Origin: Methanovulcanius yangii
GTDB taxonomy: Archaea; Halobacteriota; Methanomicrobia; Methanomicrobiales; Methanomicrobiaceae
Direction: 5' to 3'
NCBI RefSeq assembly: GCF_018687785.1
Contig: NZ_LTBL01000001.1
Coordinates: forward strand, 611,780-675,779
Length of the DNA stretch: 64,000 bases
Part shown: positions 5,801-24,575 of the stretch, piece by piece
Layout of the letters: every line of letters begins with the position of its first letter
Numbering within the stretch: position 1 is the stretch's first letter
The notes under the pieces: generated by a model
What the model was told of the DNA's origin: nothing
The model's input: only the letters and a program-made list of their open reading frames with translations
Databases searched by the model: none
Made by a program: the position numbers and the translations under genes

Positions 5801-6385
5801 ATGATAATTGGATATGCACGTACATCATTAGCGTCGGAAAATATTGAAAATCAACTTTCAATATTGCTGCAAAAAGGAGTTCATAGAGAAAATATCTTTA
5901 TGGATGTGGGGGTTTCTGGATCAGTATCCCCATTTACGCGGCCTGGCTTTCAAAGATTATTTGATACCGTGAAAAATTCTAAAATTGATTATCTTTATGT
6001 CTATGAACTCTCTAGGCTTTCCCGTGATTTAACGGATACCCTCAATATTCTTAGAGATTTAGACAGGCTTGGTGTTTGTGTCGAAAGCCTGTCACCAAAT
6101 GAATCATGGCTAAATTGCGATCCTAGTATTAAGCAACTCATCGTTTCAGTCCTGGGCTGGTGCGCTCAACGCGAACGGGAGAACCTCGTTGAACGCACAA
6201 AGGTTGGAATGTCAAGAGCACGAGCTGAAGGCAAGCACATTGGAAGGCCCTACAAAAAAATCGACTGGAAATATGTGTATTATCTCCATTCTGAAGGAAT
6301 GAATTTCAAAGAAATTGCCGACAAAATTGATGTTCCATATTCAACGTTTATGCGAAGAAAACAGGCAATAAATAAGAACTCATAA
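5801..6385 (+). CDS. serine recombinase (resolvase/invertase family)
   Basis: 194 residues, typical length for a small serine recombinase. The N-terminus GYARTS gives the nucleophile Ser9; the catalytic arginine region is ELSRLSRDL, and the helix E/hinge has RAEGKHIGRP before a C-terminal helix-turn-helix (about 148-190). It acts by site-specific DNA cleavage through a phosphoserine link, and could invert or resolve DNA or move an element. It sits 73 bases upstream of the DISARM-like operon in the same direction and has AT-rich codon use. Together with the tyrosine recombinase at 23.2-24.4 kb it brackets the defence genes. Target sites not identified. Confidence 0.9.
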   Translation: MIIGYARTSLASENIENQLSILLQKGVHRENIFMDVGVSGSVSPFTRPGFQRLFDTVKNSKIDYLYVYELSRLSRDLTDTLNILRDLDRLGVCVESLSPNESWLNCDPSIKQLIVSVLGWCAQRERENLVERTKVGMSRARAEGKHIGRPYKKIDWKYVYYLHSEGMNFKEIADKIDVPYSTFMRRKQAINKNS

Positions 6386-6458: not shown

Positions 6459-9400
6459 ATGCAGATTCCTGTTCCCGGCCAATGTGTTATCGTACGTAAA
6501 CGCCCTGCAGTCGTTCGTGACTCATATGAAAGTTGCTCTGGCTCAGATGGAACAGTTCTTCACTTGATTTCGGTTGAATATATTGATGAACATGAATATC
6601 CCCGTGAGGATAGTGTTATCTGGGAACGGGAAATTAACGCAGAGGTTTTTTCTTCCTTCTCATTTCCGGAGATTGCAGATATTTCTCTCCAGCCGGATCC
6701 GCCTGAGCGGTTTCATGCATTTATTGACGCATTGAGATGGACCGGCCAGGGATCTTATTGCTACAATGGCGATAATGTTGAATATCTGCCCTCGGATTTA
6801 CTCTCCCCTTCATTCAGTGCGGTTCAGGTTGAGGATTATCAGCTGTATCCTGTTCTCAAGGCACTGGCAATGCCTCGTACAAATCTCCTCCTAGCTGATG
6901 ATGTAGGTCTTGGAAAAACAATCGAAGCAGGCCTGATTGCCCAGGAGCTGATCCGCCAGAAACGGATCCGCAGGATGATCATAATTTGTCCCTCTTCTCT
7001 TCAGATTCAATGGCAGGATGAGATGAAAGAGAAATTCAATATCGATTTCACGATTCTCGATAGTGCCCAGGTTTTTAGGATGCAGCGTGAAGTAGGGGTT
7101 GATGCGAATCCATGGAAGATGTATCCAAGGATCATCGTATCCATGGATTATCTGAAACAACCGGATATTCTCAACCAGTTTATTGCAACATCCCAGCAGC
7201 TGGGTTCAAGGGATTCTGCAATGCTCCCTTGGGATCTTTTAATCGTTGACGAGGCGCATAATTTCTCTCCGTCAAGGTTTGCAGACGACAGCCAGCGTTG
7301 TTCTATGCTTCGTGAAGTGGCGATGTATTGTGATCATCACCTATTCCTCAGTGCGACACCGCATAATGGCTATACTGTATCTTTTACTGGCCTTCTTGAG
7401 ATGCTTGATCCTATACGGTTTCAACAGAAGAGCGTTCTCGAGGAAGAGGATATGTCGAATATAGGGGAGATCATGGTTCGGAGAATGAAAGAGGATCTCA
7501 ATACGGACCAAGATAATCCTCGGTTCCCACGAAGGAATATCAAAGGTATTGCACTTGAGTTCCCGGAGGAAGAAACCCGCATATACGATGCACTCCGCGC
7601 ATATAGAAACGGAGTTTCCCGTCAGATGGCGCGTTACGGGAAAGGTGAACGGGTAGTCGCGGAATTTATTTTTTCCGTCCTGACAAAACGCCTTCTTTCA
7701 AGCTCATATGCCTTTGCAAAGACATGGTGGGATCATGTCGAAGGGACAGGCCTCGAGGGATTTGGATTTGAAGAGGCTGATGCTTCAATGAAACGGGCCC
7801 TAACACCGGTTGAAGATGATATGGAAAAAGATCAGCGGGATCTCGATGCCGTGAGGCATGGGGGTGGGTGGCTGTCAAAATACCGTGATATCGTAGCCCC
7901 CTATCAGGCTGAGATCACGAGGCAGCTTGAGCGTATGGGTTGGGGACGTCGTGCAATTCTTCAGAACATCGATGAGCAGCCATCATTTCCCAGCGATATA
8001 AAATTCGAGAGTCTTCTGACATGGATCCGGGATAATCTGATGGAGGGTTCCTTATTCCGATCCGATGAGAGGGTCATCATATTTACCGAATATAAAAATA
8101 CTCTCGATTATCTTGTAGCGCGGTTTAGAGCTGCAGGGATTGACGAGCCTTATCTCCAGACTCTCTATGGTGGTGCAAGTACAGAGCACAGGCGTGGAAT
8201 CAAAAACGCGTTTAATGATCCGGCATCTCAACTTCGGATTCTTTTAGCAACAGAAGTAGCATCAGAGGGTTTGAACCTGCAACAGTCCTGCAGGTATGTA
8301 ATCCATCAGGAGATCCCCTGGAACCCAATGCGCCTTGAACAGAGAAATGGAAGGGTTGACCGTCATGGCCAGTCGCGAGATGTAACGATATTCCACTTTG
8401 TATCGGATCAGGTGGAGGAACTGAAGTTTCTGGACTTCATTGTAAAAAAGGTGGATACCGTCAGAGAGGATCTGGGGAGTGTGGGCAAGGTCCTTGATGA
8501 TGCGGTACTAGAATATTTTTCAAAAGGATCCGTCACCCAGACCGATGTGGATACCCGTATTGAACTTACCCATCAGTATACTGATGAATCGAATGATACC
8601 TCACATGCAAAACGCGGTTCTGAGACGGAGTACGAGTCTGCGGTTGGAACCTATGATCAGACAATGGGGGCTCTTGGCATCACAGAGACGTCTCTTGCCC
8701 GATTGCTGGATCAGGCGATGCACCTGGAAAACGGAGACCTTGAATTCCAGGGTGAAGGTATTTGGCGAATCAGGAAGATGCCTCCTCACTGGAAAAATCT
8801 GATTGAAAATACCATTCTGATCAGCGGGAATGGCGCACAGGGGGCTCAACCGAAAATTGTTTTTTCCCCTGAGCGTGTCCAAGAAAAGGTAAATGGACGG
8901 ATGATCTTTCACCCTGGCAGCGATTCACGCCTGTTAATGCTCGGTCATCCAATGATGCAGCGTGCACTATCAACATTCCGCCGTAGGGTATGGCTCTCAC
9001 CGAATGAGTCCGGTCTCAGAAGGTGGACGGTGGAGAGAGGGGTTCTGCCGGATAGTACCCAGGCAGTGTTCTATCTTTCGTATGATATCGCCCTGAGGAA
9101 TCAGCTTGGCGAGCGGTTCCATACTGGTATTCTTGAGGTACCTGTGGGATTTGGGACAGAGATGTGGATATTGGGTGAAGATGACAGTGAGAAGATCCGG
9201 ATGTCGGTTTCATCGGATATGGAGGATGCGGATGTGGCGAGGGCCCGTGCCTCCATTGCTTCCCATTGGTTTGGTGTTCAACGATATGCCGATGAACTGA
9301 AAAGTGGCATCATATCCTCCCTCAATGATACCGTAGGAGATGAGTTGCAGAAGCACTATCATCTTGAGGAAAAAGAGCAACTTCGACTCTTTGCGGAGCG

Positions 9401-9731
9401 GCGGCGTTCTCTCGAATTGCGCAAGGATGATAGGTCAATAGCAAAACTGAAAAAGGAATTGCTCCGCGCCAAAGAGAAGGCAACACAACTCACCTTTGAT
9501 CCTGAAGAGAATCTACTCAGAAAGCAGGAGCTAGAGCTATTAAAAGAGAGAGTGAGTGAGAAGGAGTGGGAGCGTCAGCATGATCACCTTGAGCGGCTAA
9601 AGGAACGGCTTGCCCGTGAAGAGGACAGAATCATTAACCGTGTATTGCCGGGTCGATATAGTTTAGATAAGGATGGTATTGAGTTCCATCCGGTGGCCGT
9701 TCATGTTATTGTAAACAGGAGTGATGCCTGA
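6459..9731 (+). CDS. drmD: SNF2-family helicase, DISARM DrmD-like
   Basis: 1090 residues. SF2/SNF2 ATPase motifs are all present: Walker A GLGKT at 150-154, DEAH at 264-267, SATPH at 298-302, and motif VI QRNGRVDRHGQ at 628-638. A charged coiled coil (about 960-1060) precedes the C-terminus. Size, motif spacing and its position directly before a giant adenine methylase match DrmD of class 1 DISARM, an ATP-driven translocase in a restriction-like antiphage system. The stop overlaps the methylase start by one base (TGATG), so the two are co-translated. A TTTAAG element 24-29 bases before the ATG suggests a near-leaderless message. The closest alternative is an unrelated HepA/RapA-like helicase; the neighbour makes DrmD more likely. 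Confidence 0.75.
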   Translation: MQIPVPGQCVIVRKRPAVVRDSYESCSGSDGTVLHLISVEYIDEHEYPREDSVIWEREINAEVFSSFSFPEIADISLQPDPPERFHAFIDALRWTGQGSYCYNGDNVEYLPSDLLSPSFSAVQVEDYQLYPVLKALAMPRTNLLLADDVGLGKTIEAGLIAQELIRQKRIRRMIIICPSSLQIQWQDEMKEKFNIDFTILDSAQVFRMQREVGVDANPWKMYPRIIVSMDYLKQPDILNQFIATSQQLGSRDSAMLPWDLLIVDEAHNFSPSRFADDSQRCSMLREVAMYCDHHLFLSATPHNGYTVSFTGLLEMLDPIRFQQKSVLEEEDMSNIGEIMVRRMKEDLNTDQDNPRFPRRNIKGIALEFPEEETRIYDALRAYRNGVSRQMARYGKGERVVAEFIFSVLTKRLLSSSYAFAKTWWDHVEGTGLEGFGFEEADASMKRALTPVEDDMEKDQRDLDAVRHGGGWLSKYRDIVAPYQAEITRQLERMGWGRRAILQNIDEQPSFPSDIKFESLLTWIRDNLMEGSLFRSDERVIIFTEYKNTLDYLVARFRAAGIDEPYLQTLYGGASTEHRRGIKNAFNDPASQLRILLATEVASEGLNLQQSCRYVIHQEIPWNPMRLEQRNGRVDRHGQSRDVTIFHFVSDQVEELKFLDFIVKKVDTVREDLGSVGKVLDDAVLEYFSKGSVTQTDVDTRIELTHQYTDESNDTSHAKRGSETEYESAVGTYDQTMGALGITETSLARLLDQAMHLENGDLEFQGEGIWRIRKMPPHWKNLIENTILISGNGAQGAQPKIVFSPERVQEKVNGRMIFHPGSDSRLLMLGHPMMQRALSTFRRRVWLSPNESGLRRWTVERGVLPDSTQAVFYLSYDIALRNQLGERFHTGILEVPVGFGTEMWILGEDDSEKIRMSVSSDMEDADVARARASIASHWFGVQRYADELKSGIISSLNDTVGDELQKHYHLEEKEQLRLFAERRRSLELRKDDRSIAKLKKELLRAKEKATQLTFDPEENLLRKQELELLKERVSEKEWERQHDHLERLKERLAREEDRIINRVLPGRYSLDKDGIEFHPVAVHVIVNRSDA

Positions 9732-12700
9732 TGAGCGATCAATCTGTGAATGATTGGTTTTCTGAACTCCGTCAAAACGGCCTTTTAATATCGTCTCCCA
9801 TATTGGATTCATGGCTGCCAGATGGGCCGGTTTCTCTGGATGATCAATCCTATGAGCGCCTTCGTGATGGGTATCTGGCTTATCTCTCACGTTCAGAGTC
9901 TGATCGTCAAGATCACACCGGATTGCATCTCTGGCTAAATACGGTCTTCGAGCGGTTCTTCGGATATGAACAGTCTTGGTGGCAGAAACACACTAGGATC
10001 GATGAACGGTTTATTGTTGTCCAGAGCGGATTTTCCGGTGGGAAGCTCCGGCCAGATCGGGTCCTTTGTATGAAAGGCGATTCCGAGGATCCAAGGTTTC
10101 TGGTACTCATTGAGCATGAGGCAAAGCGGGTTGGCATGGGACGGGGAAGAGCATTGTATAGTGCCTTTATCGCCTTGCTCCGGGAAACCGGCGTTCCCCT
10201 TGGTCTCCTCACAAATGGTCATCAGTTCAGACTGGTATACGCTGGCCTGGACTTTGATGCCTGGGTTGAATGGGAGGCTGACCGATGGTTTGAGGATGCA
10301 GCAGGACGGCGCCAGCTCGCTGGATTTCTCAGTCTCTGTGGACCGTTGGGAACCTTCCCTTCGGGAAACATCTCCTTTCCACTTCTGCAGGCTGTAACCG
10401 AGAGCAGGTCAAAGCAGGGAGATTTGTCTCAGGTTCTTGGGGAGCGGACGCGTGAAGCTGTAGAATTGCTGCTTTCCGCCTATGATGCGTCCCGACAAAC
10501 ACACAGAGAACTCGACGACATATTGTTCCTGAAACCTGATGGCAACCGAATCTCAGAAAATGAAGCGCACCATGCACTTTACCAGGCATCCATCCGGTTG
10601 ATAATGCGCATTGTGGTGACTCTCTTTGCAGAATCCCGCGAGTTACTTCCGGTCGAGAGTGATATTTACTACTCGTCATACGGTGTGGAGGGACTATATG
10701 CACAACTTCGTTCAGCACTGGGTTCAGGTGGCGAAGATTGCCTGCATGAACAACAACAGGCATGGCACCGCCTTCTGGCGCTCTTCAGATTAATTGCAGA
10801 GGGATCGGAATATGAAGATCTTATCGTTCCGGTGTATGGCGGTGCACTGTTTCGAAGGGGCGAACCATCAAGCGCTGACGTGGTATCCCGTGCACTGGCC
10901 CTCTACGAAGATAGGCGTGTGATAATCTCCGATGCGGTGGTGTACCGAATCCTTTGGCTTCTGAAGTTTGGGGAGGTTAAAGTGAAGATGGGAAGAACCA
11001 CCCGACGGATCCCCGGGGTAGTGGACTTCTCCGACCTGCGGACTGAGTACATCGGGATGATGTACGAGGGTCTGCTCGATTACCGGCTGAAGATGGTGAC
11101 GCCTGCAGAAGAGGCAGTAGTATTCCTTAACCTCGGAAAACAACCTGCATTGCCATTTGCCTTGCTAAGGGATATGGAAGATACACCCCTCAGGAACCTG
11201 ATCAATGAGTTGTCAAAGGAGGACTCCTCAGATACCGGTGAAGGGGAAGAAACTGCCAGTGATGATGCGGATCTTCCAGAACCGGAGGTTGATGAAACTG
11301 ACGAAGAATCCGATGAAGAGGATGCTTCTTCGACAGAGACGGGTGAAGGGGAGCTCTGGCAGCAGGTCTTTGCCTGGGCATGCCGGGCTGTCGTGGTGTC
11401 CCGCCGTGTCCGGCGAACACAGAGGATGGATGAAACTATCTTCCAGGCCGAGGTTGAAATAAAGGCCAGAGGGCTCCTTCAAAAGGTGGTCTATCCCGGC
11501 CAGATGTACCTGATAAGGAGCACTGGTACACGGAAAGGTTCAGGAACATTTTACACCAAGCCACAACTCGCGGTGCCGACTGTTCACCGTACTCTTGAAC
11601 CCCTTGCTTATGAGGTTACACCTACTGATGAGAAGAAAGTAAAGGTGCCGAAGACTCCAGATGTGATACTTGGCCTCAGAGTCTGTGACCCGGCGATGGG
11701 GTCGGGGAGCTTTCTGGTGGGAGCATCACGTTACCTGACTACAGCCCTGTTTGAAAGCCTGTGGCACCACGGGATGATCAATGAACGTCGGGCCGGCGGG
11801 ACGGTTGTTACCCTTCCCTTTGAGGATCCTTTCACCAGAAAACCGTACGAGGAGTTCATGCCAGAGTCTACGGAAGATGAACTCTTTGATTCACGACTGA
11901 AGGCCCGATTAAAGCGGCATGTTACTGAACGGTGTATCTACGGGGTGGACCTCAATCCGCTTGCGGTTGAGCTTGCAAAACTCTCCCTCTGGGTGGAGAC
12001 GATGGACCGTCAGCTCCCCTTTACCTATCTTGATCATAAGCTCCGGTGCGGGAACAGCCTTGTGGGATGTTGGTTTGACCGGTTTGAGGAATATCCGGTG
12101 ATGGCGTGGATGCGTGAGGGCGGTGACAAGACCCATTCCAATGGCATTCACTATAGAAAGGGCGTATGGACGGATGCAATCAAGACGAATTTGAAGGAAC
12201 AGGTAAAGCCTGAACTTGCTGCACATATCAGACGGCATGCCGAAGGGCAGACCGGGCTTGAGGAGTGGGCTGTGGACGGGAAAGTTGGTCATACCCTCCA
12301 TAACCAGGCGGTCGCCCTTGCAGAACGGCTTCATGCGATACCCATTCAGCAGTCCGATGAACGGGAGCAGTGCTATCGACAGCGATTTGTTGAAAATGAA
12401 GGTCTCAAGGCCCTCCACCATGCTTTTGATCGATGGTGTGCCGTCTGGTTCTGGCCTGGTGACTGGCTGGACGAGGACGGGCCAACTCCGGCGCGGTTCT
12501 ATCACCCGACGGAAGTCTTCACTGAACGGGTCCGCCAGATAGCCGCAGACCAACGATTCTTCCACTGGGAACTGGAGTTTCCGGATGTCTTTATGGCAGG
12601 GCGCGGGGGGTTCGACGCGGTTGTGGGGAATCCTCCATGGGAGATTTCAAAGCCAAAGTCACAGGAGTTCTTTTCCCTATACGACCCGGTATACCGGACC

Positions 12701-14809
12701 CGAAGTAAACAGGACGCCATCTCCCAGCAGAAAGATCTTTTCAGGCAAAACAGCGCAATTGAGCGTGCATGGCTCCTTTACAATGCCGGGTTTAAGGCGA
12801 TGTCAAACTGGAACAAGCATGCATCATTTCCCTTTGGGGACCCGGACGATGAGGCAGTCGGTGGCGCGAAGATCTCGTTTTCACGTACAAGAACTGAGAA
12901 CCTCGGGTTGCATGCCAAATGGAGGCGACGACGCGTCCAGCAGAGCGGATATGCGGACAGTGCCCATCCCTTCCGCCATCAGGGTTCCGCGGACATCAAT
13001 ACCTACAAAATGTTTCTTGAGTCGGCGCATGCCCTATGCCGTACCGGCGGCCGGATCGGGATGATCGTCCCCTCCGGCATCTATACTGATAATGGTACGA
13101 AGCAATTGCGGGAACTGTTCCTGAACCACTGTAATTGGGAGTGGATATTCGGATTCGAGAACAGGAAAAAAATATTTGATATAGATTCTCGTGCAAAGTT
13201 CTGTCCAATTCTCCTTGAGAAAGGCAACAGAACAGAGGCTATCCAGGTTGCCTTCATGCGCCACGACCTTGAGGACTGGGAACGACCAGAAGATTGTTCG
13301 CTTTCCTATCCGGTGGAACGGGTTCATGCATTTAGCCCGAAGAGTCTTTCCATTCTTGAGACTCAGACAGATCGTGATTTGGCTATCATCACAAAGATCT
13401 ATGACGGCTCAGTTCTGCTAGGGGATCAGGGCCCAGAGGGGTGGGGTATTAAGTATGCTGCAGAGTTCCATATGACCAATGATTCAAACCTCTTCCCGCC
13501 CCGGGCATGGTGGGAGGAGCGAGGCTATACCCCCGATGAGTATGGGCGCTGGGTGCCTTCGGAAGGGGAAGCGCCGGAACTTGTTTATCGAGGGAAAAAG
13601 ATTGGTGAGCCTGGTGATATGGCGCTCCCGCTCTATGAAGGACGGATGATTGGCCAGTTTGACTTTTCTGAGAAAGGATGGGTAAGTGGAACTGGAAGGA
13701 GTGCTGTTTGGCGGGATATTCCATGGGATGAGAAGGTGATTGAGCCGCAATATTTAATTTCAAAAAGTAAATTCAAGGATAATCCAAGGGTTTCAAAAAA
13801 ATTCAAATTAGGTATGATGGATGTAACCTCTGCAACCAATTCAAGAACAGCAATTGCAACAGGAATTTTTGATATGCCCTGCAATCATAAGGTTCCAACA
13901 CTAACCCCTATGAATTATTCTATAAACAATATATTTCAATTATTGTCGGTATTCAATTCAATACCATTTGATTATGCAGTTAGAACACGATTAGGTGGAA
14001 CATCTTTGATTTGGAGTGTGTTAGAAGAAATGCCAACTCCAGTTCAATTACATACCTCTGGAGAAAGATTGTGTCAATATTCAGTAGAATTATTATTACC
14101 AAATCAGTTATTCGCTGCCATCTGGATGCAAATAAAGGATGATTATCCCAATAAAATTAATCGTAGTTGGAAATCATGTTGGGCTATCACTCCACATGAG
14201 CGTCTAAGACTTCGCTGTATTCTCGATTCAATTATTGCATATTTCTATGGACTTTCTGCTGAGGATATGGGATGGATTCTAAGAGATTGCGGGCATTCGA
14301 CATATAATATTAGATCACTCTCAAAAGAATTCGATCCCAAAGGCTTCTGGCGGGTGGACAAAGATAAAGATCCTGAGCTTCGTCATACAGTTCTTTTACT
14401 GAAGGCGTTTTTGGATCTGAAGACTATGGGCTTAGAGGCCTTCTACGCTCAGAATGACGGAGAAGGATGGATGATACCAGAAACGATTACTTATGAAGTG
14501 CTCGCTGATGGGACCATTGCCTTCGATACACCGAATGGGATTACCGTTCCTGTCAGGAAACGGCTTGGTGAACGATTCCTGCCTTGGCAACTTGAAAGTT
14601 CAGCGAAAGAAAGCTGGGCAGAATGCGAGATGCATGCCAGAAAAATCCTCGGTGATGAAGAGTTTGAAAAAATGATAGCTGAATCGGAACGCGGCGATTT
14701 CAATGAGGTTGAAGTATCGGATGTGCAAAAAGTTCTCAAGAGAGCAAAAGGGAAAAACGAGACTTTTATCACTGAAAAACGGAATCAAAAATCCTTATTC
14801 GATTATTAA
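9731..14809 (+). CDS. giant N6-adenine DNA methylase with nuclease-like N-terminus (DISARM DrmMI-like)
   Basis: 1692 residues. The SAM-binding motif I is DPAMGSGSF from residue 653 and the catalytic motif IV is NPPWE at 967-971, defining an Eco57I/type IIG-like adenine methylase. The N-terminal ~250 residues contain P108-D109 then E130-A-K132 in a hydrophobic strand context, a PD-(D/E)xK-like pattern as in type IIG enzymes; this is an inference. An acidic linker (about 495-540) separates it from the methylase core. Residues about 1337-1535, the expected target-recognition region, are encoded by strikingly AT-rich DNA. In class 1 DISARM such a protein marks host DNA so the helicases attack only unmodified DNA. 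It could instead be a stand-alone restriction-modification fusion, but the operon argues for a DISARM-like system. Confidence 0.75.
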   Translation: MSDQSVNDWFSELRQNGLLISSPILDSWLPDGPVSLDDQSYERLRDGYLAYLSRSESDRQDHTGLHLWLNTVFERFFGYEQSWWQKHTRIDERFIVVQSGFSGGKLRPDRVLCMKGDSEDPRFLVLIEHEAKRVGMGRGRALYSAFIALLRETGVPLGLLTNGHQFRLVYAGLDFDAWVEWEADRWFEDAAGRRQLAGFLSLCGPLGTFPSGNISFPLLQAVTESRSKQGDLSQVLGERTREAVELLLSAYDASRQTHRELDDILFLKPDGNRISENEAHHALYQASIRLIMRIVVTLFAESRELLPVESDIYYSSYGVEGLYAQLRSALGSGGEDCLHEQQQAWHRLLALFRLIAEGSEYEDLIVPVYGGALFRRGEPSSADVVSRALALYEDRRVIISDAVVYRILWLLKFGEVKVKMGRTTRRIPGVVDFSDLRTEYIGMMYEGLLDYRLKMVTPAEEAVVFLNLGKQPALPFALLRDMEDTPLRNLINELSKEDSSDTGEGEETASDDADLPEPEVDETDEESDEEDASSTETGEGELWQQVFAWACRAVVVSRRVRRTQRMDETIFQAEVEIKARGLLQKVVYPGQMYLIRSTGTRKGSGTFYTKPQLAVPTVHRTLEPLAYEVTPTDEKKVKVPKTPDVILGLRVCDPAMGSGSFLVGASRYLTTALFESLWHHGMINERRAGGTVVTLPFEDPFTRKPYEEFMPESTEDELFDSRLKARLKRHVTERCIYGVDLNPLAVELAKLSLWVETMDRQLPFTYLDHKLRCGNSLVGCWFDRFEEYPVMAWMREGGDKTHSNGIHYRKGVWTDAIKTNLKEQVKPELAAHIRRHAEGQTGLEEWAVDGKVGHTLHNQAVALAERLHAIPIQQSDEREQCYRQRFVENEGLKALHHAFDRWCAVWFWPGDWLDEDGPTPARFYHPTEVFTERVRQIAADQRFFHWELEFPDVFMAGRGGFDAVVGNPPWEISKPKSQEFFSLYDPVYRTRSKQDAISQQKDLFRQNSAIERAWLLYNAGFKAMSNWNKHASFPFGDPDDEAVGGAKISFSRTRTENLGLHAKWRRRRVQQSGYADSAHPFRHQGSADINTYKMFLESAHALCRTGGRIGMIVPSGIYTDNGTKQLRELFLNHCNWEWIFGFENRKKIFDIDSRAKFCPILLEKGNRTEAIQVAFMRHDLEDWERPEDCSLSYPVERVHAFSPKSLSILETQTDRDLAIITKIYDGSVLLGDQGPEGWGIKYAAEFHMTNDSNLFPPRAWWEERGYTPDEYGRWVPSEGEAPELVYRGKKIGEPGDMALPLYEGRMIGQFDFSEKGWVSGTGRSAVWRDIPWDEKVIEPQYLISKSKFKDNPRVSKKFKLGMMDVTSATNSRTAIATGIFDMPCNHKVPTLTPMNYSINNIFQLLSVFNSIPFDYAVRTRLGGTSLIWSVLEEMPTPVQLHTSGERLCQYSVELLLPNQLFAAIWMQIKDDYPNKINRSWKSCWAITPHERLRLRCILDSIIAYFYGLSAEDMGWILRDCGHSTYNIRSLSKEFDPKGFWRVDKDKDPELRHTVLLLKAFLDLKTMGLEAFYAQNDGEGWMIPETITYEVLADGTIAFDTPNGITVPVRKRLGERFLPWQLESSAKESWAECEMHARKILGDEEFEKMIAESERGDFNEVEVSDVQKVLKRAKGKNETFITEKRNQKSLFDY

Positions 14810-15051
14810 AAGGATATGGATGGATTAACAAAAAAAGAGGAAAATCAATAGAATCTTTTTTAGAGCAATTAGAACAAACAGAGGCCTATTTTTTAATAAA
14901 ATATCAAGAGGCGAGATTCTCGTCATTATCTTTTAGATGAAGGGACTTTCTTTTATTGGACTACCAAATCTGGTATCAGTCCATGGATTTCCTTATTTAC
15001 ACATTTTTACCAGAGACAACTTTTATCGAAACAAACTAAGATGTATCTATA

Positions 15052-18000
15052 ATGACCCTCAATCCTATCCTTTTTGCATCTGAAATAAAAAAGCAGCACT
15101 TTAGGTATCAAGTGACGGCTTTTCCGCTCTCAGACCCGGATCTTTCTGCGCAGGCAGAAAAGATGCTCAGTGGGGAGCAGTCCGTTGGTTCCGAGCTCCT
15201 CAAGGGCCCATATATCTCCCTTTCCCGACCATTTGCCGAGGGGGCTCTTCTTGAAGATCTGGTCAGGGAAGGAAGGCTTCATCCGGGTGTCGCCCATGTC
15301 GCCGAACATCCACGGATGTTTGCCCACCAGGAGAATGTCTTCGATGCAATTTCAGAAGGGAATCATTGCCTGGTCTCGACGGGAACAGGTTCGGGAAAGA
15401 CAGAGTCGTTTCTCTATCCCATTATAGACCACTGCTTCCGGCTCAAAGATGAACAGGTCCCACCGGGTATTGTCGCTGTGATCGTTTACCCGATGAACGC
15501 CCTTGCTATCGACCAGTTGGAGCGGCTGCGGGGTCTCCTCGCCGGAACAGGCATCACGTTTGGAATGTATGTAGGGTCAACCAAACGCAAGAATTCTGAT
15601 GTCGCAAATGTTGAAAGGATGCAAAAAGGAGAGGGTCGAGAGGCTTATTCGCGATACTACGGGAAATATGGAAACCATAAAAATCTCATTGTCATCCCGC
15701 ATGAGGAAAAGATCTCCGTTGAAGAGATGCATGAAGAACCCCCGCGAATTCTTTTAACCAATATCAATCAGCTTGAATACCTGCTCACCCGTCCCTCCGA
15801 CCTCAAGATGATCGAGAATTCTCTCCTTAAATTCCTGGTTCTTGATGAGGCACATACGTACACCGGCTCACGAGGGGCAGAAGTTGCCCTGCTGATCCGA
15901 CGGCTTCGGGCTTTTGCAGATACAACCGCTGATGAAGTACTATGCATCGGGACCAGTGCCACAATTGTTGATACAAAAAAGAAGACTACAGCCCCTGCAA
16001 AATTTTTCCACCGTCTATTTGGTGTCGATCCCAAGTTGGTTACATTCGTGGAAGAAAAATACATTGGTACCTCCTATCCGCACGATACATTCCATACTAA
16101 GCCCATCGGAAGTGCTGCCCCTGCATTCTTTGAATACACTCTTGATGCCATCGATGGACCGGGGGACCCCGCCGCAGTGTCCGGGATTCTCAGAAAATTG
16201 GGTCTTCCCGAGCTATCAAATGAAAAATCATGGAAGGAGGAACTCTACGAAACCCTCTTGCATAGTGACATTATTCCCGAAATTGAGGCATCCCTGTCAT
16301 CACCAAAGAATCTATGGGGCGCTACGCATGACATCTGGAATGTCTTGAAAAGGCCAATCCCACGGGAGGAAGAGGCGGCAGAACTCCTTACGTGGCTTGC
16401 ATTGGGGGCCACCGCAGAGAAGGATAACCATCCCCTTCTTCGTCCTCAAGTCCACTTTTTTATTCGTGGTCTTGCCGGCACCGTCGGTATCCTTGGCGAA
16501 CCAGTTGAGAGTGAAACACCGGTAAACATCTACTTCTCACATGCCAAAGCGGAGAAGCTCAACCCCAACCCGCGCCTGCAAACCACAGGTATCTTCCCCG
16601 TCGTCTCCTGCAAAAAATGTGGGCAGCATTACTTTGAGATTGCTGTCGATGAGATCGGTGAAGAAGAGAAACTGCATGGAGGGATTAGTGAAGGGGAGAA
16701 TGTCTACTGGCCTCCTGCCAAGGAAAATGAAGGCATAAAACTCACTTTTACGAACCGGTTTGTCAGTGAAGCAGAGGCCGATGACGAAGATGTGGCGGAT
16801 AAACTGGCAAAAAAGCGTCAGGAAGCCTACATCTGTCGTTTCTGCGGGACTATTCATTTGAAATCCTCGGAACAATGTCTGTACTGCCACGTTCAGCAAC
16901 CGGTTGTACCGATATACGTTCTGAATAAACACGGAATTATTGCAAAGTGTCCAGTCTGTCTCTTTGGGGCACCCTCTTCCAAACAATCGGCACTCAGGGC
17001 CCTCTCTGCCGTGCAGGTAGCAGATATCCACATTCTCGCGCAAAGTATGATCAATGCAGAGAATGCAGAAAATCGAAAACTGATACTCTTTGCAGATAAT
17101 CGGCAGGACGCCGCCTTCCAGGCGGCATGGATGTCGGATCACGCCCGCCGATACAGGTTCAGACATCTGCTCTTTGAAATTATTAGCAAAGCCGAGATTC
17201 CCGTAGCCATCGGGGACCTCGTTGAGACGCTCACCGCTCTCTTCAAAATGAATCCGGATCTGGGAAGAGCGGTTGCAACTGAAGTCTATGAACGGGGAAT
17301 CGAGGAGTCGTACAGCAGCAGAACTGAAGAGAGCATGAAAAAATACCTGAGAATTTCGATTCTCAGGGAACTTACGACGAGCTTCTCTCAAAGAGACAGT
17401 CTTGAGACATGGGGGAAGATTGGTATTGCCTACTTTGGTCTTGAGGAGAGTAACCCCACCATCGAATCATTCGCTGCCAGGTATCAGATGAGTACAGAGG
17501 ATGCAGTCAATCTTCTTGGCAGCCTGTGTGATTATCTGCGGCGTTCCCGCATACTTTGGGATGAAAAGGAGCCCATTTACAGCCACTGGTGGCACAGGGG
17601 AATGCCTGAAATACAGAGAAAGTTTATCCCATATTTTGACTTCCCACCGAAAGGTGTAAAAATTCATCGTGAAACCGTCGATAAGCAACAGTATGTCGCA
17701 GGTCTGACATCATCGAGAGGCAGGACCACGGTATATGATTTCATCAAAAAAATCGGCATTGATGAGGAGCATATCGATCAGTGCATAGAGGATGTCTGGA
17801 ACATTTTAACCCGCGATCTCGGCATTCTTATCCCGGTCACCCTGACATCACAGAAAGGGAAACCCCTGCCCGGTGCAACAGGAGTATATCAGGTCGATGC
17901 CCGGAAGATCGGCATTCTCCCCCAAAACGAACGCTACCGATGTGTGGTTTGTAATAGAATCCACAGCAAAATGACACCTAATGAGCGGTGTATGAAGATT

Positions 18001-20385
18001 CACTGCAAGGGCCACCTCGTCAGAGAAGGTCCTCCTGAAGATGACTACAATGTGAGCCTTCTCAATCATGATTTCACCATGCTCATTGCACGCGAACACA
18101 CCGCACAGGTCCCATCGGATGAGCGCCAAGAGATCGAACAGTCATTCAAGGATAAAAATGGCACAATTAACTGTCTGGTTGCAACTCCCACTCTCGAACT
18201 CGGTATTGATGTGGGCGAGCTGGACATGGTACTGATGAGGAACGTACCACCCCTCCCCTCAAATTACTGGCAACGGGCGGGCCGTGCCGGGCGCAGACAC
18301 CGGATGGCCGTAATATTCACATATTCGTTAAAAAAGCCCCATGATGAATATTTCTTTGAAGATCCCATGCGGCTTTTAGGGGGCACAATATATCCTCCTC
18401 ATATTAACCTGAAAAATCCGGTGATGATTAGAAAGCATGTTCATTCAGCAATTATATCCGAGATCATCCTTACCGAGATGCATGCAGACCAAGGAAAGGC
18501 AGCGAAGATAAAGGCTATCCGAGAGACGTGCCTGCCTCCGTACATATCCGGATATCTCTTTGAACCCAGTCGTCTGATAAGGCAAACTCCCCCTGATCTT
18601 ACTTCCCTCGAAGGTCTAATTACTCAACTCAACCCGAAGATTTGCACCAGAATCCAGCAGGTATTTTCAGAGAACTGGCCTGAAGATTCAATTGATGAGG
18701 TTCAATCTGAAATTCTTAGCGACTATGTGAATTCCTTTGTCAATGATCTTCGGTCCCATATCGCTTTGATACATAAACGATTGCTCTGGGCGAAAAAGAC
18801 ACGTGATTCCTTAACCGAAAAAGAACGAAACGTCTCACAACTCGATGAAATGGACTCTCGCCTTCTGAACCGTTGCAGAGATTACATCCTTGGTCTTGGA
18901 GAAAAAAAGCTTGATAACTATACCCTGAACGTTCTTGCGAACAGCGGTTTTCTTCCCGGCTATGCCCTCCATCCTGGATCTGTGACGGGTATTGCATCCG
19001 AATCCTTCTCCTACGGATGGAAGAAATACATGTTTGAGCTATCACGACCGGAATCGCTTGCAATACGTGAATTTGTTCCAGGAAATCTCCTCTATGCAAA
19101 TGGCGGGAAATATAGGGCAATATGGTATCATCTGCCATTTGGTGAGAAGGGGATAGATCCGGACCGATATGTCGTGGATCTCGCAACTATGCGGGTTTTC
19201 CTCGGCCAGTCAGGCGCAGATGGTTATGCAAATAATGAAGAGATCACAGTACCTGGGGTAGCCATTTGCGATACTGAGCTTGGTTTTGTATCACTGGTCT
19301 CCGATGAAGAACAGAACCGGTTTAAAATGCCGGTTGTTATGGGAGGAATCATTCAGCGGAATCACCGGGGTATTGATCATTATGCGGCTGGTGAACGCGA
19401 ATTCTCACATCGCCATGGGCAGGATGTTCGACTCATCAACCTCGGACCATCCGATAAAGTGCGTGAAGGGCAATTGGGGTACCCTCTCTGTCTTGTTTGT
19501 GGAGCCTCCCGCTCTCCCTATGCCTCAAATACTGAGTTGGAAAATTTTTATGAGTTCCATGAAACTAAATGTGGTAAAAAACCCGAACTGTTTTGTTTCA
19601 GTGCAGACGCAAGAGTAGATGGATTTCTTTTCGAGCGATGCGAAACCAGATCTGATGCCATCAACCTCGCTGAGGGATTGAAAATTGCTGCAAATGTCTC
19701 TCTCGAGATGGAACCTGATGATCTTGAGTTCATTATACTCATGCATGATGAAGAACAGGCAGATGTATTCCTTTATGATCCCATGCCGGGAGGTTCTGGC
19801 ATTCTTGATCAGATAATCGATCAATGGGACCATATCATTGAACGCGGGATATATTCTCTCAACAGCTGTACGAACAACTGTGAAACGGCCTGCTATGAAT
19901 GTATGAAATCCTATGGGAACATGCAGAATCATGAACTTTTAAACCGGATGCGTGCAGCCCAACTACTTAATTCAATAAAATCACCTCTTAAAAAGACTTC
20001 ATCCGTCCCATCAGTTGAAGAGGAGCAGGCCTCAGAAGGTGAATCCACAAACACTGCAGAAATGCGACTTTCGGCATTAATGCAGGAATATGGTTTACCT
20101 CCCTTTGATCGTCAGAAAGAAATCCAGTTGCCACAGGTAAACATCACTACTACACCAGACTTTTATTATGAGTCTCTGGACAACAGTGTTCGTATAGCGA
20201 TCTATCTTGACGGTCTTTCAAGATTTATTCATGGGGATCCGGAAATTCAGAGGAAAGACCAGTTTATTCGGACTGTTTTGAGATCAAATGGGTATATAGT
20301 GGTTGAAATTTCAGCCACGGCACTTGATGATCCTGAGATGATGAAGTATAAGTTGATGGAAATCGGAATTGCCCTTGAAAATTAA
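15052..20385 (+). CDS. giant DEAD/DEAH helicase with DUF1998 and C-terminal nuclease-like domain (DrmA-DrmB fusion or DruE-like)
   Basis: 1777 residues. Motifs: Walker A GTGSGKT 111-117, DEAH 265-268, SAT near 302, motif V ATPTLELGID from about 1044 and motif VI QRAGRAGR at 1074-1081. Zinc-binding pairs lie at C520/C523, C595/C598, C609/C612 and C633/C636. The DUF1998 signature has four cysteines at 1606, 1610, 1614 and 1617. The last ~110 residues contain P1702-D1703 and D1720 in a YLDG strand, resembling Vsr/DUF559 PD-(D/E)xK nucleases. DISARM normally splits helicase (DrmA) and DUF1998 (DrmB) into two proteins; a single chain is typical of Druantia DruE and of MrfA. A TTTTAT element at 15021-15026 suggests its own near-leaderless promoter. 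The 242-base gap before it holds only short open frames. Confidence 0.75.
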   Translation: MTLNPILFASEIKKQHFRYQVTAFPLSDPDLSAQAEKMLSGEQSVGSELLKGPYISLSRPFAEGALLEDLVREGRLHPGVAHVAEHPRMFAHQENVFDAISEGNHCLVSTGTGSGKTESFLYPIIDHCFRLKDEQVPPGIVAVIVYPMNALAIDQLERLRGLLAGTGITFGMYVGSTKRKNSDVANVERMQKGEGREAYSRYYGKYGNHKNLIVIPHEEKISVEEMHEEPPRILLTNINQLEYLLTRPSDLKMIENSLLKFLVLDEAHTYTGSRGAEVALLIRRLRAFADTTADEVLCIGTSATIVDTKKKTTAPAKFFHRLFGVDPKLVTFVEEKYIGTSYPHDTFHTKPIGSAAPAFFEYTLDAIDGPGDPAAVSGILRKLGLPELSNEKSWKEELYETLLHSDIIPEIEASLSSPKNLWGATHDIWNVLKRPIPREEEAAELLTWLALGATAEKDNHPLLRPQVHFFIRGLAGTVGILGEPVESETPVNIYFSHAKAEKLNPNPRLQTTGIFPVVSCKKCGQHYFEIAVDEIGEEEKLHGGISEGENVYWPPAKENEGIKLTFTNRFVSEAEADDEDVADKLAKKRQEAYICRFCGTIHLKSSEQCLYCHVQQPVVPIYVLNKHGIIAKCPVCLFGAPSSKQSALRALSAVQVADIHILAQSMINAENAENRKLILFADNRQDAAFQAAWMSDHARRYRFRHLLFEIISKAEIPVAIGDLVETLTALFKMNPDLGRAVATEVYERGIEESYSSRTEESMKKYLRISILRELTTSFSQRDSLETWGKIGIAYFGLEESNPTIESFAARYQMSTEDAVNLLGSLCDYLRRSRILWDEKEPIYSHWWHRGMPEIQRKFIPYFDFPPKGVKIHRETVDKQQYVAGLTSSRGRTTVYDFIKKIGIDEEHIDQCIEDVWNILTRDLGILIPVTLTSQKGKPLPGATGVYQVDARKIGILPQNERYRCVVCNRIHSKMTPNERCMKIHCKGHLVREGPPEDDYNVSLLNHDFTMLIAREHTAQVPSDERQEIEQSFKDKNGTINCLVATPTLELGIDVGELDMVLMRNVPPLPSNYWQRAGRAGRRHRMAVIFTYSLKKPHDEYFFEDPMRLLGGTIYPPHINLKNPVMIRKHVHSAIISEIILTEMHADQGKAAKIKAIRETCLPPYISGYLFEPSRLIRQTPPDLTSLEGLITQLNPKICTRIQQVFSENWPEDSIDEVQSEILSDYVNSFVNDLRSHIALIHKRLLWAKKTRDSLTEKERNVSQLDEMDSRLLNRCRDYILGLGEKKLDNYTLNVLANSGFLPGYALHPGSVTGIASESFSYGWKKYMFELSRPESLAIREFVPGNLLYANGGKYRAIWYHLPFGEKGIDPDRYVVDLATMRVFLGQSGADGYANNEEITVPGVAICDTELGFVSLVSDEEQNRFKMPVVMGGIIQRNHRGIDHYAAGEREFSHRHGQDVRLINLGPSDKVREGQLGYPLCLVCGASRSPYASNTELENFYEFHETKCGKKPELFCFSADARVDGFLFERCETRSDAINLAEGLKIAANVSLEMEPDDLEFIILMHDEEQADVFLYDPMPGGSGILDQIIDQWDHIIERGIYSLNSCTNNCETACYECMKSYGNMQNHELLNRMRAAQLLNSIKSPLKKTSSVPSVEEEQASEGESTNTAEMRLSALMQEYGLPPFDRQKEIQLPQVNITTTPDFYYESLDNSVRIAIYLDGLSRFIHGDPEIQRKDQFIRTVLRSNGYIVVEISATALDDPEMMKYKLMEIGIALEN

Positions 20386-20645: not shown

Positions 20646-22517
20646 TCAGGGGTCAACATTCAGAACAATACCAGTCTTTGGAGAATCGCTTCGGCTAATC
20701 TCTGCAAATCTTCGGTTACAAATTTCAAATTTCTGGGTATCTCCACTAAAGAATTTTGTTCCTTCAATTTTTTGACCGAATCCATTAAGATATGTCTTAA
20801 CCGAATCTTGAATAATATACAACCCTGAGTATTGATGCATAGACCCACTCCAGACACGAGTTCTCAATGGGCTAGATCTAAAATTGTTAAGATCATCCTC
20901 AATTCTTGTTGGATCTGCGCCAGTCGATAGATAGGCAAGACCAAATAGATATTCAAATATGTCATACGTTTCGGAATATCCAATATCTCCAGGAATCAGG
21001 TGTTTTACAAGTTTGTGGCATATGAGATAGATATACCAAAAGAAATCTCCGGGGGCATTAAAGAATTCAGAATTTACTGTTTCCCAGAGATCATACCTTC
21101 CAAAAATTCGTGAAATATTGATTGATTCAAAATATGGTTTTTTATTCTCTGGAATATGGTATGGTTTAAAAATTTTGGGAGAAAATACTGCCTCTAAACT
21201 GTTAAAATGTTCAGTTCGAGTGGCGGCAATTCCAGTTGTATAGATTGTAATTAAGGCTGGTAACAGACGAAGATGATATAGGCATTCACCAAAATCCTGG
21301 GGGCATGAGAAATCTGTAATTATTGTTTTTTCTCCAGTAAATGGCTCATTGTGAGGAATATTGACCAACCTCTCAACTACATCATGGATTAGATAATCAT
21401 ACTTGTCGTCAAAATAGGCAAGGGTTGCCAGCATTGTAGCAAGAGGAGATGTTTTCTTTGTTAGAGAATATATTCGAGAATTTAAGTACTCAAGAGCATT
21501 GATGGTCCCATCAGGAAAATATACTTTCTGTGCAAGTTCTTCAAGTATAAATTCAGTTTGAGAATGGATTAACTGTGAAAGGGCAATATCTGGGCGAGGT
21601 TGCTGTAATGCATCTGTTACCCTCCTGATTGCAGCAGAAACGGTAAGGGGTTGCTTCTGTTCAATTGACCGAATACGCTCTACAATGGTATCTAGGCTGG
21701 TAAAAAATTGATCTGCGGAATCTATTTCGATTGGTATTGGCTTTATTGCGGAATTTAGATTTTCAGGAATATCTGAATCTGGACGCAGACACCAGAAAGT
21801 TGGATATCTGCGGTATTGTTGTGATGAAAGAATTTCTTGGAGCCCTGAATCATAATCTGCCGACCATCCACATACAATTAAACCGTATTCTTCACAAATT
21901 TTCTTGATATAATTCGAAATATCAGGTTCATAGGATTCCAAGTCTTCAGGTGTGAGCTTGAGCTCCAAATTTTCAAAATCTCCATTTACTTTCACAATAC
22001 GGCAGGTATCAGGAAAAATTGACATCATTTGTGGGTCGGATTGCGAATGAATAATTACAGGGCGGACACCTGTTTCTCTGATAGCATCTTCAAGTAAAGG
22101 GTCAAAATTTGTGGTAATTATAAGACTTACCATCTTCTCTTTTACTAACTTAGCAATCATTCTGTGCGCTATAGTTGTGTTTGATGGTAATGGATCGCCA
22201 TTATCGTCTGTTGGCAGAATTAATGGGATAAGTCTATCACGTCGGGTCTCCTCTACGATTCCCAACTTTTTCATGAGGTTATCAAAGGTAATTGGTCCAT
22301 CTACATTTTGTGAAAACCATTGAAAGCATACGTCTACATCGTCATTTCCTTCAATAGCCACTCCCCTCCCTTTTGCGATCTTCCTTATCATATCTGCAGC
22401 TACTTCTTTTCCACTAGGAAGACCTGCAGAAAGAGAGATCCCTGCTCCAAGAAATAGTGCATAACGTTTTGGCGATGCCTGCATCGCATATGCTACCGGT
22501 ATTACCGCATCGTCCAT
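20646..22517 (-). CDS. SIR2-domain protein, probable defence effector
   Basis: 623 residues from the ATG at 22517; a GTG at 22526 is the alternative, but the GAGGGTGG six bases before the ATG favours 22517. The N-terminal ~300 residues form a SIR2 fold: GAGIS at 24-28, TTNFD at 135-139 and a CGWS strand at 216-219. Stand-alone SIR2 proteins in defence islands usually degrade NAD+ on phage infection. Here the segment that normally reads HGD is V-N178-G-D, so the usual catalytic His is Asn. The C-terminal ~320 residues are alpha-helical and unassigned, perhaps a sensor. It converges on the DISARM-like operon. It may be a separate abortive-infection system or an accessory of the cassette. Confidence 0.75.
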   Translation of the reverse strand: MDDAVIPVAYAMQASPKRYALFLGAGISLSAGLPSGKEVAADMIRKIAKGRGVAIEGNDDVDVCFQWFSQNVDGPITFDNLMKKLGIVEETRRDRLIPLILPTDDNGDPLPSNTTIAHRMIAKLVKEKMVSLIITTNFDPLLEDAIRETGVRPVIIHSQSDPQMMSIFPDTCRIVKVNGDFENLELKLTPEDLESYEPDISNYIKKICEEYGLIVCGWSADYDSGLQEILSSQQYRRYPTFWCLRPDSDIPENLNSAIKPIPIEIDSADQFFTSLDTIVERIRSIEQKQPLTVSAAIRRVTDALQQPRPDIALSQLIHSQTEFILEELAQKVYFPDGTINALEYLNSRIYSLTKKTSPLATMLATLAYFDDKYDYLIHDVVERLVNIPHNEPFTGEKTIITDFSCPQDFGECLYHLRLLPALITIYTTGIAATRTEHFNSLEAVFSPKIFKPYHIPENKKPYFESINISRIFGRYDLWETVNSEFFNAPGDFFWYIYLICHKLVKHLIPGDIGYSETYDIFEYLFGLAYLSTGADPTRIEDDLNNFRSSPLRTRVWSGSMHQYSGLYIIQDSVKTYLNGFGQKIEGTKFFSGDTQKFEICNRRFAEISRSDSPKTGIVLNVDP

Positions 22518-22570
22518 ATTGGCCACCCTCTCATGAACAAATTATTCGATCTGAACTTTATCAGAGAATA

Positions 22571-23200: not shown

Positions 23201-24418
23201 CTACTCCGATTGCGATTGTACTCTGGCAATAGCTTCCTTAAAGATGGCCGCGCCGCCGGGCGATGCAAGAATCTCTTCAATCTTTTGTATTACTGCCTCA
23301 TGCGTCGCCTGTGCCTCTGCGCTCAACGCAAGACCACATCGGGAACAGTATTCGGTTCCAGGAGGATTGATCTGACCACATTGGTAACACTGAACCGGGG
23401 CTAAGGCGTCACTCTTGTCGGCTAACTCAGGGATATCCACTCCCGCCAGCCGGGCGAACTGACGTTCGACATCATCATCACTGAGATGCGTGTATGTCTT
23501 CAGCATACTGGTGTTGATATTTCCCCAAAATGTCAATGCGACATACACCGGATTATAGTTCTGGCGCAGGCAGTGCGTAATTCTGGAGTGCCGCAGAATG
23601 TGAGTACTCACTTTCCTCTCAATACCAGCATCCTTTGCGAATTGACGGAACGTTTTTGCAAAACTCTGGTAATAGAGCGGTTGGTTGTGCTTGTTCAGGA
23701 AGACAAAATTCTCCCCCTCGGGGTTACCGGGGTAAATCGATTTCCATTCTGCCAGATATTGTGCGTAGGCGATAATGGGAACTTTGCGTAGTTTTCCGGT
23801 CTTTCCATCAGTATAGATGCGTACCCTGCCTTCCATAAACCGGACATCTTTCCACTGCAACTGGCCAATCTCGTGAATCCTGAAACCGCCCTCATAGGCC
23901 ACACCCAGCAGGGCTTTATATTGTATGGAACGAGGCGTGTGAATGAGCTGCTGGACTTCCTCCTCGGTTAAGATGTCCTCTTCTGTTTTTGTCGTGTAGT
24001 TATAACGGGTGCATTTGATGTTCTTGATCTTGGCAATAGGAACATCAATTTTGTTATTCTCAATGAGCCAGAGATAGTAACGCTTGGTAACACGAATAAA
24101 ATCGGCGATGGTGTTCTGGGAATATTTGGTCCCATCCTCCTTTATTGCCACACGCAGCGATTCAATCCCTTCGTAGATATCGGAGAGAACAAGATCTTCT
24201 ACGGACGGAAGGAACCGATGGCACTGAACAAGGTTTGAGACCAGTTTGAAACGTCGCTGGGCCGAGAGGTTTGCCGTGACTGAAATCTCGGCAATAAATT
24301 CACGGATATAATTTGCATCTGCCGGTGTGAGGGTTCCGTTGTCCAGGGCATTTTGTATACTCCTCTTTTCATAGACCCGGTAGGTCTCCGGTTTTTTATG
24401 GAACCTCTCATTCCGCAT
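23201..24418 (-). CDS. tyrosine recombinase/integrase with C-terminal zinc ribbon
   Basis: 405 residues. An N-terminal SAM-like core-binding domain (about 1-150) precedes a catalytic domain with the integrase residues: Arg in GGFRIHEI, the box II HILRHSR, and the nucleophile Tyr in KTYTHL. After it comes a zinc ribbon, CYQCG...CSRCG, and a short helical tail. It catalyses strand exchange at att sites through a phosphotyrosine. Archaeal Xer-like integrases with such ribbons are common near integrated elements. It marks the right border of the accessory region: beyond it the sequence becomes GC-rich housekeeping DNA. A TATA box lies at 24441-24449. It could alternatively be the chromosomal XerA, though the ribbon and context favour an element-borne enzyme. 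Confidence 0.88.
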   Translation of the reverse strand: MRNERFHKKPETYRVYEKRSIQNALDNGTLTPADANYIREFIAEISVTANLSAQRRFKLVSNLVQCHRFLPSVEDLVLSDIYEGIESLRVAIKEDGTKYSQNTIADFIRVTKRYYLWLIENNKIDVPIAKIKNIKCTRYNYTTKTEEDILTEEEVQQLIHTPRSIQYKALLGVAYEGGFRIHEIGQLQWKDVRFMEGRVRIYTDGKTGKLRKVPIIAYAQYLAEWKSIYPGNPEGENFVFLNKHNQPLYYQSFAKTFRQFAKDAGIERKVSTHILRHSRITHCLRQNYNPVYVALTFWGNINTSMLKTYTHLSDDDVERQFARLAGVDIPELADKSDALAPVQCYQCGQINPPGTEYCSRCGLALSAEAQATHEAVIQKIEEILASPGGAAIFKEAIARVQSQSE

Positions 24419-24449: not shown

Positions 24450-24575
24450 TTGTTGTAGGGATTCGAGACATTACATCCTTATGCCCCATAGCAGCACTCT
24501 GTATTTTTTTTGATGATTCTATACGATAATCCACATATTGCATTTTTTTAAAATCAATACGCCTGCACGCACGGG

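Follow-up and report, generated by a model that had tools for sequence, protein, structure and literature searches.

ARMADA, described by Bell et al. in 2025, combines a BrxHII/RapA-like helicase (ArmA), a PglX-like methyltransferase (ArmB) and ArmC, a protein with YprA helicase, DUF1998 and Vsr domains (PMC12458937). For the Type I form, the order armA-armB-armC is reported from many archaea and cyanobacteria. The system has two genes in common with DISARM, for which reason Bell et al. regard it as a missing link that connects DISARM with Druantia (PMC12458937). The Type II system of E. coli, ArmABCD, protects against phage by a non-abortive route that needs all four genes, the Walker motifs and the NPPW motif, which is essential in E. 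coli ArmB (PMC12458937).

The window analysed here, a stretch of 64,000 nucleotides from Methanovulcanius yangii, holds a cassette in which armA, armB with an NPPW motif and armC stand side by side, the gene set of ARMADA. The DISARM core genes drmA, drmB and drmC are absent from the cassette; a search of the organism's own genome found no drmA-type gene. The island that carries the cassette has no PLD motif, in agreement with an earlier note on this DNA, which had seen no drmC; PLD genes are present elsewhere in the genome. No armD-like gene lies downstream of the cassette. The cassette is of the ARMADA kind, already described, and is neither DISARM nor Druantia. Judged from the sequences, its novelty is a significant conflict between the trees of ArmA and ArmB and that of ArmC.

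The cassette and the element that carries it

The earlier note had described three giant co-directional genes at positions 6459-20385, and the reading frames proved to be exactly as it gave them: all three are intact, on the forward strand and free of internal stops. armA and armB overlap by one base (position 9731). In the relatives described below, the gap between armB and armC is filled with 1.3 to 7.4 kb of other genes, and the start sites and full lengths of the window proteins are kept. When the genes were compared with those of G121, another Methanomicrobiales genome, second codon positions differed by 15-20% and third positions by 60-62%. This excess of third-position over second-position divergence indicates that the cassette proteins are under purifying selection.

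Table. Features of the cassette, of the element edge and of the related locus in G121
Feature	Position	Strand	Basis
armA/drmD-like SNF2/RapA-family helicase, 1090 aa (core residues 115-690)	6459..9731	+	profile searches, trees
armB/drmMI-like Eco57I-type N6-adenine methyltransferase, 1692 aa	9731..14809	+	profiles, trees
NPPW catalytic motif (motif IV, ArmB residues 967-970)	12629..12640	+	motif reading
armB-armC intergenic spacer, 242 bp	14810..15051	+	comparison with relatives
armC, YprA-family SF2 helicase with DUF1998/MZB and Vsr-like nuclease, 1777 aa	15052..20385	+	profiles, motifs, trees
DUF1998/MZB four-cysteine domain (ArmC residues 1541-1618; C1606, C1610, C1614, C1617)	19672..19905	+	PF09369; MrfA fold match
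C-terminal Vsr-like nuclease domain (ArmC residues ~1660-1777; motifs TPDF, IYLDG, IHG)	20029..20382	+	motifs, fold model
Tyrosine integrase, right edge of element	23201..24418	-	PF00589
att repeat CCCCATAGCAGCA, 13 bp, copy of tRNA-Glu 3' end	24484..24496	+	edge comparison
DruE and HamB-like genes flanking the cassette in G121	L082:479-6388 and L020:16245-19172		PADLOC profiles

The element that carries the cassette is about 35.9 kb long and integrated at a tRNA gene. GC content drops from about 57% to 36-53% in the island, and the flanks of the element, 36.0 kb apart in the window genome, are 67 bp apart in G123, a genome of the same genus with an empty site. A tRNA-Glu gene (L074:8294-8368, outside the window) forms the left edge with its 3' end, which the att repeat at the right edge copies; in 300 shuffles of the element edges no shared word of 13 bases arose. 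In E. coli such systems have been reported to be linked with mobile elements, and this tRNA-integrated element of a methanogen, with its ARMADA-like system, extends the link to archaea.

Several neighbouring genes may be mentioned. Directly 5' of armA lies a gene for a small serine recombinase or resolvase (5801-6385, +). Just 3' of the cassette the element also encodes a SIR2-domain protein (20646-22526, -), which PADLOC matches to the candidate defence family PDC-S65 (383 bits); it was considered as a component of the system and dropped, the relatives having no homologue nearby. Just beyond the right att stands a gene with an ATP-cone and an Mrr-type nuclease domain (24576-25409, -), which is kept in G123 without the element.

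Affinities of the three proteins

Pfam searches placed SNF2 and Helicase_C domains in the first protein, an Eco57I/N6-MTase domain in the second, and DEAD, Helicase_C and MZB/DUF1998 domains in the third. The descriptions that the earlier note had given of these products, a DrmD-like protein, an adenine methylase, and a DEAD helicase with the four cysteines of DUF1998 and a nuclease at its end, all held up against the profiles, motifs and fold comparisons given here. The trees used few reference sequences per group (2-9).

Against the NCBIfam model DISARM_DrmD (NF038317), which has a curated cut-off of 610 bits, ArmA scored 728.7. Window-type ArmA (window and G121) reached 690-729 bits with this profile, and ArmA of ARMADA Types I and II 280-470 in a comparison set of seven ARMADA-type proteins, six at full length and one a contig-cut copy; among the ArmA scanned, only the window-type proteins passed the cut-off. 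The conserved N-terminal ~115 residues are common to ArmA and DrmD, and the DrmD core is 37-41% identical to that of the window protein. In the tree, which held three window-type sequences including the broken Synechocystis member, ArmA of the window, of G121 and of the Synechocystis plasmid is sister to class-1 DISARM DrmD with support of 100/100. A constrained tree that joined it with ARMADA ArmA in one clade was worse by 53 log units and was rejected (AU p=7e-9).

ArmB also groups with its DISARM counterpart, DrmMI (support 97/97), and a grouping with ARMADA-I was rejected at p=0.007, in trees that used two full window-type ArmB and pool domains of differing affinity. Residues 1-560 match DrmMI best, with up to 127 bits as against at most 54 for ARMADA. 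The catalytic core, on the other hand, has an NPPW...EFF stretch in the style of ARMADA-I, where DrmMI has NPPF with a deletion in five proteins and NLPF in one, and the C-terminal 512 residues have a confident match to ARMADA-I only. The tree signal is stronger for ArmA than for ArmB, whose domains point two ways; the protein appears to have a DrmMI-like N-terminus joined to an ARMADA-like core and C-terminus, and overall it tends towards DrmMI. A single-sequence fold of residues 1-590 had a pLDDT of 37 and was left out of the analysis. We also considered a PD-(D/E)xK nuclease at the N-terminus (PD...EAK, residues ~108-128) and rejected it; the pattern is present in the window and in G121 and lost in G218 and Synechocystis.

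ARMADA ArmC has been described as carrying BrxA-like, MarR-like and zinc beta-barrel insertions and a helical finger after RecA2 (PMC12458937). The window ArmC has Walker A and B motifs, CxxC clusters, a helical stretch after RecA2 and one zinc-binding insertion before DUF1998; in sequence alignments, both the helical stretch (1228-1295) and the CxxC clusters line up with those of other ArmC. The TPDF...IYLDG...IHG pattern of the C-terminal domain can be aligned between window-type and ARMADA I/II proteins, though not with Druantia III. In a model of the C-terminal 490 residues, good definition is confined to the DUF1998 region and the nuclease domain, the latter with pLDDT of ~77-86 over most of its length. 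This C-terminal model matched the fold of MrfA with probability 1.00, and likewise the catalytic domain of the homing endonuclease I-Bth0305I (3r3p_B), which we take to be Vsr-like, with probability 1.00 and TM 0.76 on the target.

The ArmC trees took in class-1 DrmA, ARMADA I/II, Druantia II/III, the genome's own YprA and four to five window-type sequences. ArmC falls in a clade of ARMADA I, ARMADA II and window-type proteins, apart from Druantia II/III (100/99). Within it the window-type proteins form a separate clade (100/100), placed next to ARMADA-I with support of only 83-85/87-89. A phylogeny of this helicase had been proposed in the earlier note, with a firm grouping with DruE or with unrelated repair helicases as the adverse result; it lies outside DruE II/III and far from DrmA and from the housekeeping YprA of its own genome.

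Relatives in other genomes

Within the class, full armA-armB-armC sets were found in the window genome and in three further Methanomicrobiales (G121, G207 and G218); G199 and G202 have ArmC fragments at contig ends. The other 226 genomes of the class search contained no window-type ArmC, and three of them have ordinary ARMADA-I-like homologues of ~27% identity. A sample of 394 from the phylum contributed no further window-type ArmC. The Synechocystis B12 plasmid CP101713 has one degraded copy, broken by frameshifts and transposases. The order of the three genes, which the earlier note had proposed to survey, thus recurs in three archaeal genomes and on this plasmid. A scan of genome contigs with a single protein gave three loci only, and a scan of viral contigs no match.

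In G121 the cassette sits between a Druantia DruE (1714 bits with DruE2, 1672 with DruE4) and a Hachiman HamB-like helicase (PDC-M23B, 1375 bits), an array of three defence systems that resembles the Druantia-ARMADA array of E. coli. EVE-domain proteins recognised by Pfam are encoded in the armB-armC gap of G218 and adjoining armC in G202 (L022:10540-10980, L027:183-620). On the island of the window genome, upstream of the window (L074:18227-18658), there is an ORF that resembles a small EVE protein by eye only. Class-1 DrmA has been reported with an EVE-like N-terminal domain.

Further loci were noticed on other plasmids and in a phage. The Pseudanabaena ABRG5-3 plasmid has a divergent ARMADA-like set (L038:71-17265) in the order armA, a VapBC insertion, armB, a gene annotated as a 3'-5' exonuclease, and armC; its branches are long in each of the three trees, and it may represent a further lineage. 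DruE proteins on cyanobacterial plasmids (L030:11989-18357, L038:17255-23503), which group loosely with Druantia III, have a large gene upstream, in one case annotated as chromosome-segregation-ATPase-like. Ruminococcus phage NatCom_28274 encodes a YprA-family protein of 1558 aa (L039:7992-12668) beside a 2.7-kb gene, between structural and replication genes. A seemingly solitary DrmD-DrmMI pair on Synechococcus elongatus pIITB7_1 was set aside as evidence of modularity when drmA, drmB and drmC were found across the origin of the record.

Interpretation and comparison with known systems

The ArmA and ArmB trees place the cassette with class-1 DISARM and the ArmC tree places it with ARMADA, and the lineage therefore lies between the two systems. 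Since the closest sampled ancestor of the ArmA-ArmB pair is common with DrmD-DrmMI, the pair and the YprA effector appear to be modules that ARMADA and DISARM have exchanged. The pair may have passed from such a cassette into DISARM or from DISARM into this cassette. We consider it probable that the cassette is an antiviral system of the ARMADA kind, of a lineage that is a mosaic of ARMADA and class-1 DISARM; it would travel with its tRNA-integrated mobile element and is proposed to work through methylation of self DNA and a helicase-nuclease. We propose more tentatively, as a possibility, that the lineage is a third, separate ARMADA type and, among living systems, the one nearest to the source from which class-1 DISARM drew DrmD-DrmMI; class-1 DISARM would then have arisen by exchange of ArmC for DrmA-DrmB-DrmC (or by the reverse). 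The window-type proteins may already be among those that Bell et al. list under Type I.

When the earlier note called the cassette DISARM-like, it was right about the first gene, but without the drmA/drmB/drmC core that defines DISARM the cassette is not DISARM. Its phrase "intermediate or new subtype" fared similarly: the intermediate position stands, and so does the observation that the functions of DrmA and DrmB are in one chain, as in DruE; the fused architecture, however, is not new, having been described as ARMADA in Sept 2025 (PMC12458937).

A variant of class-1 DISARM, in which one fused helicase-nuclease has replaced drmA, drmB and drmC and which still works as DISARM, would explain why ArmA is the sister of DrmD and passes its cut-off, why the N-terminus of ArmB matches DrmMI best, and why the order is drmD-drmMI-YprA as in class-1 loci. 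It would have to do so without the drmA-drmB-drmC core, with an ArmC that is not a DrmA, and with ARMADA-like features in ArmC, in the C-terminus of ArmB and in its NPPW core with the EFF stretch; we regard it as unlikely. The cassette could also have lost its function and persist as a relic of a mobile element in decay, a fate suggested by the fragmented Synechocystis homologue, but all three archaeal genes are intact and under purifying selection and their catalytic motifs are kept, making this highly improbable.

PADLOC calls the three genes DrmD, a Type IIG enzyme (REase_MTase_IIG) and DruE. Three such labels on one cassette indicate that loci of this kind are likely misannotated, and two of the labels correspond to readings of their own. 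That ArmB is a plain Type IIG restriction-modification enzyme of 1692 aa with its own nuclease, beside two helicases by chance, draws on a score of 1277 bits over nearly the full length of ArmB and on the N-terminal PD...EAK pattern. The same label is given to ArmB of E. coli and Streptomyces and is therefore a property of the profile set. Not all relatives keep the pattern, as noted above, and the set of three genes is found as a unit at five loci; this reading is very improbable. We give hardly any credence to a Druantia system with the 1777-aa protein as DruE. All PADLOC DruE profiles do match ArmC, with up to 405 bits, and the fused architecture is DruE-like, yet the best scores of known ARMADA ArmC are similar (297-414 bits) and those of real DruE are 785-2179; ArmC lies outside DruE II/III in the tree, and there is no DruH, DruM, DruF or DruG among the adjacent genes.

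If the cassette is an antiviral mosaic of the ARMADA kind, as we favour, ArmB would methylate adenine at a specific sequence of the host genome as a mark of self. We infer this because the adenine methyltransferase of Serratia DISARM has been proposed to mark host sites (PMC9142583) and because E. coli ArmB needs its NPPW motif. The case for such a mark is weakened by the finding that DISARM can restrict phage that lack methylation sites and senses DNA structure (PMC9142583). From their constant pairing, ArmA, a RapA/BrxHII-like ATPase, and ArmB would together survey incoming or replicating DNA and engage it when unmethylated, presumably with a division of labour between them. ArmC would load on exposed single-stranded DNA and move 3'-5', like MrfA and DruE (PMC12458937, PMC13192584); its DUF1998 canopy may act as an allosteric relay, and the Vsr-like domain found at its C-terminus is predicted to cut the invader. 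The invader would be destroyed and the cell would survive, by analogy with the E. coli Type II system only. Antiviral activity of the window cassette is predicted from its homologues, and the three-gene cassette may work somewhat differently from the tested Type II system, since the latter needs ArmD, which is absent here. The lineage makes it testable which functions belong to a targeting part, the DrmD-methyltransferase pair, and which to a destroying part, DrmABC or ArmC.

Among known systems, Druantia resembles the cassette in its DruE, where a YprA helicase, DUF1998 and zinc modules are likewise united in one chain. DruE belongs to a clade separate from the window ArmC, and Druantia III, which lacks the methyltransferase/DrmD pair, has PLD-type nuclease ends and uses DruH. 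The Type II ARMADA loci of E. coli (ATCC 8739 and NCTC 12900) share the gene order, the Vsr-like end of ArmC and an NPPW methyltransferase. Their ArmC is only ~23% identical to that of the window, and they have armD, encoding a UvrD/GajB-like protein with a RelE-like domain, which the window cassette lacks.

Type I ARMADA, represented by Haloquadratum walsbyi PL100, Natrinema and Deinococcus MP1, likewise consists of armA, armB and armC without armD, the assignment of single plasmid loci to Type I or II being our own from gene content and trees. The haloarchaeal loci have the same order with armC last, and ArmC is likewise a fusion of YprA, DUF1998 and Vsr with one zinc-binding insertion in the OB/CON region. 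The Type I proteins are only about 25-31% identical to those of the window, and unlike them the window ArmA and ArmB are nearer to DrmD and DrmMI of DISARM, with a DrmMI-like N-terminus in ArmB.

Class-1 DISARM (Nocardia NBC_01377, Deinococcus AJ005 and Rhodococcus ruber) supplies the closest relatives of ArmA and ArmB, DrmD and DrmMI, with the first two genes in the same order. Its DrmMI carries NPPF and has no counterpart of the ARMADA-like C-terminal region of the window ArmB, and drmA, drmB and drmC are three genes with a PLD nuclease, where the window has a single ArmC chain with a Vsr-like nuclease. The lineage narrows the link that ARMADA forms between DISARM and Druantia: the two genes that it has in common with DISARM are, among those sampled, the nearest to DISARM's own, and its effector is that of ARMADA.
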